From: Anaerolineaceae bacterium
GTDB lineage: Bacteria > Chloroflexota > Anaerolineae > Anaerolineales > Villigracilaceae
DNA: 64,000 bases
Direction: 5' to 3'
Assembly: GCA_009772985.1 (NCBI GenBank)
Contig: WOUS01000002.1
Coordinates: forward strand, 62,001-126,000
A model generated the notes under the pieces. That model saw only the letters and a list, made by a program, of their open reading frames with translations, searched no databases and had not been told where the DNA came from. Shown in pieces: positions 26,783 through 30,945 of the stretch. The position numbers were made by a program, and so were the translations under genes. Positions within the stretch are counted from its first letter, which is position 1; each line of letters starts with the position of its first letter.

Positions 26783-26958
26783 AAAAATACCCCGCTCGTG
26801 CCGTGTGCTGCAAGGTTCTGAACCTGCTTTCGCAGGTTAGGTCCGCCCCGGCACCTCCGCCTTGGCTCGGGCCTATCGCGTAATGCGCCGTGAGATGGGA
26901 CCTTTTGTGAGGGTGTTGGTTCAGGACGGTGGATGCAGCATCGCGAGCACAGCAGGGC
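26783..26958 (-). ncRNA. Structured non-coding RNA, 6S-like rod (candidate)
   Basis: CCCUGCU-GUGCU..UGCUGCA pairs with UGCAGCA..AGCGGGG near the two ends; internal GNRA hairpin AACCUGC-GAAA-GCAGGUU; inner stem AGGUCC/GGACCU; -10 TATAAA at 26965-26970; 3' AUUUUU. Confidence 0.4.
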
Positions 26959-27033
26959 ATTTGTTTTATACCATAGAGTCAAGGGCAGTGGTAGGGAAAA
27001 ATTAACAGGAGCGGCTAACTGTTAGGTTTTCGC

Positions 27034-27427: not shown

Positions 27428-27460
27428 CGCTAATCGCTAATTGCCAACCGCTAATCGCTA
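27428..27460. repeat. Degenerate heptamer repeat, locus D
   Basis: ctaatcg ctaattg ccaaccg ctaatcg ctatgga. Confidence 0.7.
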
Positions 27461-28798
27461 TGGATACACCCGCTTGATCGTCCTCGGGAAGGCAATCGCC
27501 TCGCGGATGTGTTCGATGCCGCACAGCCAGGCCACGGTCCGCTCGACGCCCATCCCGAAGCCGGAGTGGGGGACCGATCCGAACTTGCGCAAGTCGAGAT
27601 ACCATTTGAAGGCTTCCTCCGGCAGGTTGTGTTCGTGGATGCGCTGCAGGAGCAGGTCGTGGCTCGACATGCGCTCGGAGCCGCCGATGATCTCGCCATA
27701 GCCTTCCGGGGCGAGCAGGTCCACGGACTTGCAGACTTCGGGACGCCCCGGCCAGGGTTCCATGTAGAAGGCCTTGACCGCGGTCGGGTAGCCGTAGACG
27801 AAGACCGGCTTCTCGTACAGGGCGGTCAGGGCGGTCTCGTGCGGCGCGCCGAAATCCATACCCCAGTCGAATTTGAGCAGTTCCTTCTTCTCGGGATCGG
27901 TTTCGGCTTCGTAGAGTTCTTTTAGTTTTTTTGCGGCATCATCGTAGGAGATGCGCGGGAAGGGCGGCGCGATCTTTTCCAACCGGCCGAGGTCGCGGCC
28001 CAGGGATTTCAACTCGGGTCCCCGGTCCCGCAGGACGCGCTGGACGATGTGCGTCACCATCTGCTCTTCGATTTCCATCATCCCGTCGAGGTTGCAGAAA
28101 GCGATTTCGGGTTCGAGCATCCAGAACTCGGTCAGGTGACGGCGGGTCTTGGATTTCTCGGCGCGGAAGGTGGGACCGAAGCAGTAAACTTTGCCGAAGG
28201 CCATGATGTTGGCTTCGTTGTAGAGTTGGCCGGACTGGGCCAGGTAGGCCTTGCCCTCGTCGAAGTATTCGGTCTCGAAGAGCGTGCTCGTCCCTTCGCA
28301 GGCGGCGGGGGTCAGGATGGGCGTGTCCATGTTGACGAAGCCGTTGGAATCCAGCCACTCGCGCATGGCGGCGATGACCGCGGCGCGCACGCGCAGCACC
28401 GCCCACTGGCTCTGCATTCGGATCCACAGGTGACGGTGGTCGAGGGCGAAGTCCACGCCGTGGTCTTTGAGCGCCATCGGGTAGTCGGCGTCGGCGGCCT
28501 GGATGATTTCCACGTGCTTGACGCCGATCTCGTACCCGCCGGGAATGCCGGGGGCGCGCTTGTCTTCGCGCACCGGGCCGGTGATGACCACCGACGATTC
28601 CTGCGGCAGGCGGACGAGTTGATCGAAGGTTGCCTCGTCCAGGTCGCCCTTGAAGGCCACGCACTGGACAAAGCCCGAGCCGTCGCGCACCAGCAGGAAG
28701 ACCAGTTTACCCTTGTCGGTGCGGTTGTAGACCCAGCCTTGAATCGTTGCTTCTTGACCAACAAAATTAGAGATTTCCTCAACTCTGATAATAGCCAT
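27458..28798 (-). CDS. asnS: Asparaginyl-tRNA synthetase
   Basis: [42 protein letters not shown]; class II motifs [21 protein letters not shown] and [15 protein letters not shown]. Confidence 0.95.
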
Positions 28799-28814: not shown

Positions 28815-28877
28815 GAGAGAAGAGAACAGAGAGTAGAGAGTAGTGACTGCTCTCCGTTCTCTATTCTCTGATAACTA
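28815..28877. repeat. Degenerate heptamer repeat, locus E
   Basis: gagagaa gagaaca gagagta gagagta gtgactg ctctccg ttctcta ttctctg ataacta. Confidence 0.8.
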
Positions 28878-30627
28878 TGTGTAATTCCTTCAACTGCCGC
28901 TCATCGGGGTACGATGGGGCATCGGCCATCACGTCGCGCCCGGCCTGGTTCTTCGGGAAGGCGATCACTTCGCGGATGTTGGGCTCGTCCGCCAGGAGCA
29001 TGACCAGCCGGTCGATGCCGGGGGCCATGCCGCCGTGCGGCGGCGCGCCGTACTCGAAGGCTTCCAGCATGTGCCCGAACTTGAACTGGGCTTCCTCTTC
29101 TTCGATGCCAAGCAGGTTGAACACCTTCGATTGGATGTCGCGCCGGTGGATACGGATCGAACCCGAAGCCATCTCGTAACCGTTGCAGACCATGTCGTAA
29201 GCGTCCGAGAGAATCGAGCCGGGATCGGTCTCGAAGCGGTCGAGGTGTTCCACCTGCGGCATGGTGAACGGGTGGTGGGCGGCGTCCCATTTTTTGAACT
29301 CCTCGCTCCACTCGAACATCGGGAAATCCACAATGAAGGCAAAAGCCATCATGTCTTTGTCCACGAGTTTCAACGCGTCGCGGAACCAGACCCGCAGGGC
29401 GGATAAAACTTTATTGACCATTTTCGGCTGATCGGCGACAAACAGGACCAGGTCGCCGGTCGCCGCGCCGGTAAGTTTCGACAACGCTGCGATTTCCGTT
29501 TCGCCGATGAACCTGGCCCCGGAGCCTTTCGGACCGTCAGCCGTCAGCGCCAGCGTGACCAGTCCCTTCGCCCCGAGTTCTTTCGCCGTGGCGGTCAGGT
29601 CGTCGAGCTGCTTGCGGGTGTACCCGGCACAGCCCGGCGCGACCAGACACTTGATGATGCCTCCAGATTTGAGCGCAGACTGGAAGACGATGAACTCACT
29701 TTTCTCGAAAATCTTGCCAACGTCGTGAAGTTCCATCCCGAAGCGCAGGTCAGGCTTGTCGGTCCCGAACCGTTCCATGGACTCGGCGTACGTCAGCCGC
29801 GGCCAGGGGGAGGCCAGCAGTTTCTTGTGAGGGGCCACTGCCGGGAGCATCTCGGTGAAGAGACTTTCCACCAGCGCCAGCACGTCGTCGCGTTCGACGA
29901 AGGACATTTCCAGGTCCAGTTGGGTGAACTCCGGCTGGCGGTCGCCGCGCGCGTCTTCGTCACGGAAGCAGCGCGCGATCTGGAAGTAGCGTTCGATCCC
30001 GGCCACCATCAGCAATTGCTTGAGTTGCTGGGGGCTTTGGGGCAGGGCGTAGAACTGGCCGGGGTAGACGCGCGACGGCACGAGATAGTCGCGCGCCCCT
30101 TCGGGCGTGGTCTTGAACATCATCGGCGTCTCCACCTCGATGAAGCCGCGGTCGGACAAGTACTTGCGCATGAACAACACCACTTCGTGGCGCAGGATCA
30201 GGTTGCGCTTCATGCGCTCACGCCGCAGGTCGAGGTAGCGATACTTGAGCCGCAGGTTTTCGTCCACTTCTTCGTCGTCGCGGCTGACCACGAACGGCAT
30301 GGCCTTGGCCGGGTTCAGCACCGTGACCTTTTGCGCCACCAGTTCGATCTCGCCGGTGGGCATCTTCGGATTGAACTGGTCGGCCGGGCGCATCCGCACC
30401 AGCCCCTCCACCTGGACGACCCACTCGTTCTTCAGTCCCTCGACGGCTTTGGCCGCTTCGGGAAACTTGTCCGGGTTGGTGACGATCTGGGTGATGCCGA
30501 AGCGGTCGCGCAGGACGAGAAAGACCACCCCGCCGAAGGTGCGGAAATTGTGCACCCATCCGGCCAGGGACACAGTCTGCCCGGCGTGGGTGGCGCGTAA
30601 TTCGCCGCAAGTGTGAGTTTTGTACAT
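28861..30627 (-). CDS. aspS: Aspartyl-tRNA synthetase (bacterial type)
   Basis: [79 protein letters not shown]. Confidence 0.97.
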
Positions 30628-30648
30628 AAAAGCCTCCGTTGACTGGTG

Positions 30649-30742
30649 TCATTGCGAGGAGGACGTTTTTTGTCCGACGAAGCAATCTCCGACTCGCGAG
30701 GGGATTGCTTCGCCGCCAAAGAGCGGCGGCTCGCAATGACAC
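30649..30742. repeat. GTCATTGCGAG...CTCGCAATGACA palindromic interspersed repeat (copy 2)
   Basis: gtcattgcgagg...gaagcaatctcc...gggattgcttcg...ctcgcaatgacac. Confidence 0.75.
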
Positions 30743-30750
30743 AGATTACT

Positions 30751-30789
30751 TACAAAACAAATCGCCCTCCGCTGCTGCGTTGGGCGATT
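30751..30789 (-). terminator. Attenuator terminator upstream of aspS
   Basis: Minus strand AATCGCCC-AA-CGC-AGCA-GCG-GA-GGGCGATT followed by TTGTTTTGTA. Confidence 0.75.
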
Positions 30790-30808
30790 GATGGTCTGGT
30801 GTGCTTTA

Positions 30809-30892
30809 TCAACCTGCAAGGCTTCGCCCAACGCTCCGGGAGGGATCGTTATTATCATTATCATTGTTGTTGGCGAAGCGGAACCTTGTCAT
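30809..30892 (-). CDS. Leader peptide MTRFRFANNNDNDNNDPSRSVGRSLAG (Asn/Asp-rich)
   Basis: 28 codons including stop; GAGG SD 6 nt upstream of ATG; codons 8-16 AAC AAC AAT GAT AAT GAT AAT AAC GAT; upstream of aspS-asnS. Confidence 0.8.
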   Translation of the reverse strand: MTRFRFANNNDNDNNDPSRSVGRSLAG

Positions 30893-30945
30893 TCTTGCCT
30901 CAGGTTGGCGGTATTATAGCATAAATCCTTCCGGTTGCCCCGGCT

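Follow-up and report, generated by a model that had tools for sequence, protein, structure and literature searches.

What would nine consecutive codons for asparagine and aspartate be doing just ahead of the genes for the two enzymes that attach these amino acids to tRNA? The question is raised by a locus in the DNA of an uncultured Chloroflexota bacterium analysed here (a stretch of 64,000 nt, called the window below), where a short open reading frame (ORF) with such a run precedes aspS and asnS. A preliminary description suggested that the ORF encodes a leader peptide and that a switchable terminator lies behind it. We consider it highly probable (about 0.9) that aspS-asnS is controlled by a ribosome-mediated transcription attenuator.

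Parts of the leader

The preliminary description had listed an extended -10 element, a GAGG, an ORF of 28 codons (27 residues and a stop) and three helices, 1:2, 2:3 and 3:4, ending in a U-rich tract. All are in the sequence, position for position (Table 1), helix 2:3 being a perfect duplex of 11 bp. The nine consecutive Asn/Asp codons turn out to be codons 8-16, and the names given to the two downstream genes are borne out by the NCBIfam models. Helix 3:4 is lengthened by CGC-AGCA-GCG, after which comes TGTTTTGT. The U tract itself (UGUUUUGU) is moderate. Hairpin and tract together form a predicted intrinsic terminator before the first gene (30751-30789, approximately 123 nt upstream of aspS), and this is conserved in relatives. 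aspS has a GGAG of its own, and a divergent ORF flanks the leader region on the side away from aspS.

Table 1. Features of the leader and of the genes behind it, in window positions
Feature	Position	Strand	Basis or remark
Extended -10 promoter element TGCTATAAT	30913-30921	minus	sequence; TATAAT at 30913-30918
Shine-Dalgarno GAGG of the leader ORF	30898-30901	minus	sequence
Leader ORF, 27 aa and stop, MTRFRFANNNDNDNNDPSRSVGRSLAG	30809-30892	minus	sequence; homologous ORFs in relatives
Regulatory run of nine Asn/Asp codons (codons 8-16)	30845-30871	minus	sequence
Segment 1	30872-30879	minus	pairs with 30821-30828 (helix 1:2)
Segment 2	30821-30834	minus	30821-30828 with segment 1; 30824-30834 with segment 3 (helix 2:3)
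Segment 3	30777-30789	minus	30777-30787 with segment 2; 30782-30789 with segment 4
Segment 4, 3' arm of the terminator	30760-30767	minus	pairs with 30782-30789
U-rich tract of the terminator (UGUUUUGUA)	30751-30759	minus	sequence; U-rich in nearly all relatives
aspS, aspartate--tRNA ligase	28861-30627	minus	NF001750 827.8 bits, TIGR00459 729.6 bits, both above the NCBIfam cut-off
asnS, asparagine--tRNA ligase	27458-28798	minus	NF003037 531.1 bits, TIGR00457 450.5 bits, both above the NCBIfam cut-off

Two other elements lie nearby. A palindromic dispersed repeat (GTCATTGCGAG ... CTCGCAATGAC) occupies 30640-30742, between the attenuator and aspS; the genome has about 52 copies of its 11-mer, and several relatives (L016, L021, L115, L118 and L119) have a similar repeat at the same position. 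Downstream of asnS, at 26785-26961 on the minus strand, there is a 6S RNA gene (RF00013, 55.5 bits).

Could such a leader arise by chance? Within the 3.03 Mb genome, read in six frames, its Asn/Asp run is the only one of at least seven N/D residues. The whole of this genome gave 1146 combinations of short ORF and terminator-like hairpin, among which the leader alone has nine N/D in ten codons (the next best has four), and its exact 11-nt antiterminator complement, between ORF and terminator arm, ranks fourth longest. The leader fold has z = -3.2 against dinucleotide shuffles. A scan of the same genome for short ORFs with a residue run, a terminator and an antiterminator complement gave no second attenuator as convincing.

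The predicted switch

As isolated hairpins, 1:2, 2:3 and 3:4 fold with -18.1, -23.9 and -18.3 kcal/mol. Folding with a ribosome placed on the leader, assumed to cover 11 nt past the A-site codon and describing equilibrium rather than kinetics, predicts a switch between the helices. Without a ribosome P(1:2) is 0.97 and P(3:4) is 0.98. With the A site at codons 8-13, P(2:3) is at least 0.97 and 3:4 does not form; with it at codons 14-15 the folding passes from one state to the other, and P(3:4) is approximately 0.95-0.98 once it stands anywhere between codon 16 and the stop. The three mutually exclusive helices are placed such that, in these foldings, a stalled ribosome selects 2:3.

The earlier proposal that a ribosome stalled on the run covers segment 1 and allows 2:3 holds in this model for codons 8-13 rather than for codons 14-16; its other half, that a ribosome at the stop lets 3:4 form, agrees with the folding. 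Stalls at codons 8-13 are therefore probably what acts as the sensor: a ribosome at codons 14-15 gives an intermediate picture, and one at codon 16 tips the balance to the terminator. The model suggests that codons 14-16 lie too near segment 2, with the terminator favoured at equilibrium.

If correct, events would run as follows. The promoter at about 30913-30921 would give a transcript beginning with the 27-residue leader ORF. Under poor charging of Asn-tRNA or Asp-tRNA, the first ribosome would stall in codons 8-13 and cover segment 1, so that segment 2 could pair with the newly made segment 3; no terminator would form and RNA polymerase would continue into aspS-asnS. With adequate charging the ribosome would reach the stop, segment 2 would be unavailable, 3:4 would form and transcription would end at about 30751. 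If the leader is left untranslated, 1:2 would form and 3:4 would again be permitted. Translation of the leader, termination and a response to each amino acid are what such a layout would lead one to expect.

Conservation among relatives

The assembly clusters with metagenome-assembled genomes (MAGs) of Anaerolineales, and the leader design is kept in 70 aspS leaders of this order. The preliminary description had proposed a check on the aspS upstream regions of related Chloroflexota, and its outcome is positive: the run of Asn/Asp codons is conserved there, and so are the helices that exclude one another. Within the family the peptides take the form FAN-run-VGRS; in other families of the order they are more varied. 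Of 401 genomes of the order, 186 have a match to a covariance model of the leader, R1, and these take in nearly all of family f1. Across the phylum (401 genomes drawn) strong matches occur only in f1, with a few weak ones elsewhere. A few aspS copies (L020, L039, L117 and L120) have no leader, and MAG assemblies may lose some. Given that relatives in Anaerolineales keep both the Asn/Asp ORF and the RNA switch, it is most likely, as far as comparison of sequences can tell, that stalling at these codons signals the cell to make more of the AspRS and AsnRS enzymes.

Leader stop and terminator stem lie a narrowly constrained distance apart (median 20 nt), while the distance from terminator to aspS varies (9-200 nt), which fits control of termination and not control at the aspS start codon.

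Some matches to R1 were set aside. Some that precede unrelated genes (L221, L225, L230 and L231) resemble Asn runs of low complexity or ordinary terminators. The other matches in the genome studied here are weak: one is the terminator described above, read on its opposite strand, and two lie at sites that lack a leader. A Tyr/Phe-like leader before a transporter gene (L194) was left as chance or unrelated.

Covariation in the helices

Helices 3:4 and 1:2 remain supported when tested against column shuffles. For 2:3, the pair count in an unanchored MAFFT alignment gave no excess over shuffles; this count is uninformative because near relatives barely vary and distant ones misalign. We also ran a leave-one-position-out test on 2:3. 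The base of segment 3 that follows CGCCC is A or G; it is unpaired in the terminator and pairs only in 2:3, and it covaries with its partner in segment 2 (U-A 42, C-G 20, U-G 10, C-A 4; Fisher p 1.4e-7, relatedness of the sequences making such p-values too small). Leaders with the C-G pair, e.g. L121, L043, L174, L178 and L184, span several genera and families. In a per-leader test, the 2:3 duplex is better than shuffles in 63 of the 70 aspS leaders. Covariation of the antiterminator is thus seen in one base specific to 2:3, together with these 63 duplexes. The conserved Asn/Asp run, the mutually exclusive helices and the compensatory change in 2:3 are what the trp/pheST logic proposed for this locus would entail.

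The seven leaders in which no 2:3 duplex was better than shuffles belong mostly to one subgroup (L024, L028, L031 and L032). These and L199 have a different leader RNA, with a GC-rich palindrome inside the ORF and a weak 2:3. Segment 3 may extend 5' into CCAG there, with the antiterminator built differently.

Codons as the probable signal: one amino acid or two?

The ORF is short and rich in codons for the amino acids of the genes behind it. In the densest ten codons of 69 leaders there are 481 Asn and Asp codons against 7 for Lys and Glu, a ratio inflated by the choice of these ten codons for Asn/Asp density. AAY and GAY differ from AAR and GAR at the third base only, where C and T alternate freely in the run, which points to selection at the amino-acid level. 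Codons 2-5 vary freely among close relatives. In L029 and L041 the RNA of segment 2 is kept and read in another frame (YRWAKPC), so VGRS is a signal of RNA rather than of protein.

R1 leaders also stand before asnA (L166, L167, L168, L170, L172, L173 and L222-L224) and, in one case, before asnB (L171). A TIGR00669 match of the L172 protein confirms asnA; for asnB, the piece present scores with models of asparagine synthase. Runs in these leaders are mostly Asn, with a mean D/(N+D) of 0.14 against 0.34 before aspS (p about 2e-4); which codons a run contains depends on the gene behind it. Genome G008, with one leader in front of asnA and an aspS leader after that gene, gives the strongest natural indication, at the level of sequence, that the signal lies in the codons: the two leader RNAs have 72% identity, and where one has Asp codons the other has Asn codons at the aligned places. 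This division has exceptions: L173 and L223, asnA leaders from that genus, still have Asp.

Might the same attenuator sense the charging of Asn-tRNA only, its Asp codons being spacers or the product of drift (AAY and GAY are one base apart)? Asn codons are about twice as numerous as Asp codons in aspS leaders (362 vs 183), and the run usually opens with Asn. However, Asp codons accompany Asn in all 70 aspS leaders and are missing from four of nine asnA leaders, the difference in Asp share just given is hard to reconcile with this idea, and drift should yield Lys, Ser, Thr or His as readily as Asp. We regard an Asn-only sensor as unlikely. From codon content we infer that Asp is sensed too, and that the attenuator reports the charging of both tRNAs, the support being better for Asn than for Asp.

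Several other leaders, from further Anaerolineales genomes, may be mentioned here. In L169, L216, L217, L218 and L220 a leader ORF with Thr and Asn (and in some Asp) codons and a terminator precede a class I aminotransferase-like gene (e.g. MLELLFCTNNNTTTNNTNRRWTTIGRWCANVRA) that scores below all NCBIfam cut-offs. L219 (G042:C24:183405-183550) has an alternating Met/Thr leader ORF (MSHPTFGMTMTMTTLRPARRVRLVGQA) before an aspartokinase gene, with a strong alternative 2:3 helix of unrelated sequence.

Start of the leader ORF

TGNTATAAT is present at the start of the leader in nearly all of 48 relatives. The GAGG is kept in the genus of the organism studied here (with a 20-nt spacer) and is absent in many relatives. 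In 22 of the 48 leaders the ATG lies at most 9 nt after the -10 box, and in nine more 10-14 nt after it. With a transcript start about 7 nt past the -10 box, the leader ORF would open on the first base or very close to it, and about half of the ORFs in relatives are apparently leaderless.

Re-initiation may be the role of short leader ORFs in some bacteria (PMC4833913). Could the terminator be constitutive, or the leader processed, with the ORF merely aiding coupling or re-initiation and sensing no amino acid? Termination at the leader is, after all, a prediction. Such an arrangement would leave unexplained the codon specificity and its change before asnA and asnB, as well as the mutually exclusive helices with their compensatory change, and the leader stop, 60 to 300 nt from aspS, is far for re-initiation. 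We hold it to be very improbable.

Operon context

In relatives the operon reads aspS-gatC-gatA-gatB-asnS (L228), and in genome G023 leader-aspS-gatCAB-leader-aspS-asnS (L226), the gat genes being named by eye from the sequence. In the genome studied here, the assembly of which is 93% complete, we found neither a GatB match nor asnA, so that both charged tRNAs are probably made there by AspRS and AsnRS alone.

L226, L118 and L119 (G023:C10 and G042:C23) come from genomes in which aspS occurs twice, both times behind a leader. In them the leader of the copy before gatCAB is richer in Asn than that of the copy before asnS.

Comparison with known systems

The mechanism is that of trp and pheST; we found no description of it for these amino acids, genes and phylum. 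Leaders of Proteobacteria (pheST, trp, his, thr) have the same short ORF with cognate codons, the same 1:2, 2:3 and 3:4 helices and an intrinsic terminator. The pheST attenuator also controls a tRNA synthetase, and the thr and ilv leaders also read more than one amino acid. What differs here is the combination of Asn and Asp codons, the targets (aspS-asnS, with gatCAB in relatives, asnA and asnB), the phylum, the many apparently leaderless ORFs and the lack of homology in Rfam. The Rfam leader families (His, Leu, Thr, Trp, Phe) work alike and are, by this search, not homologous. We know of no leader-peptide attenuator in Chloroflexota. The preliminary description knew of no Asn and Asp leader peptide for a joint aspS-asnS operon; in the literature searched, which included few subscription papers, we too found none, nor any Asn/Asp leader-peptide attenuator. 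A survey by Lopatovskaya et al. (2010), reportedly on attenuation of amino acid and aminoacyl-tRNA operons, could describe one.

Charging control of the genes for tRNA-dependent Asn formation in Clostridium acetobutylicum is reportedly exerted by a two-codon T-box riboswitch (Saad et al. 2013). Such an RNA binds tRNA directly, with neither leader peptide nor translation, and we found no similarity to the present leader. Control of our operon by a T-box, or by some other RNA that binds tRNA or a metabolite, the ORF being incidental, is scarcely credible, even though T-boxes control some asnS or aspS genes of Firmicutes and occur in some Chloroflexota, where they are reported for ileS and trp genes (PMC2494555): the leader has no match to the T-box model or to any other Rfam family at gathering score, nor any at E of 5 or less except a meaningless miRNA match, and the most conserved upstream feature is the in-frame codon run.

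Candidate leader-peptide attenuators have been described in Actinobacteria for trp, trpS, leuS and ilvB (PMC1262725), and a His leader in bacilli (PMC2965389). They resemble the present one in being predicted outside Proteobacteria, some before synthetase genes; they concern other amino acids, genes and phyla, and no Asn/Asp leader is reported there. According to a 2010 survey, leader-peptide attenuators were known only in Proteobacteria and Actinobacteria, to which it added bacilli (PMC2965389).

Implications

We would give an even chance to a broader reading, in which one scaffold was copied and re-coded in Anaerolineales to make an aspartate-family leader-peptide regulon in Chloroflexota, in which many leader ORFs would be leaderless, their translation starting at the very beginning of the transcript. 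It would comprise Asn and Asp codons before aspS(-gatCAB)-asnS and Asn codons before asnA and asnB, and would possibly extend to Thr and Asn before the class I aminotransferase gene and Met and Thr before the aspartokinase gene.

With so many leader ORFs apparently leaderless, one has to ask how a ribosome can load soon enough to match the pace of RNA polymerase. Relatives with Asn and Asp codons before aspS and Asn-richer runs before asnA are close to natural codon-swap controls, which makes the rule that codons define the signal directly testable. Leader-peptide attenuation, known mostly from Proteobacteria and Actinobacteria, is here predicted, with strong backing from the comparison of relatives, to govern the formation of Asn-tRNA and Asp-tRNA in a mainly uncultured order of Chloroflexota.
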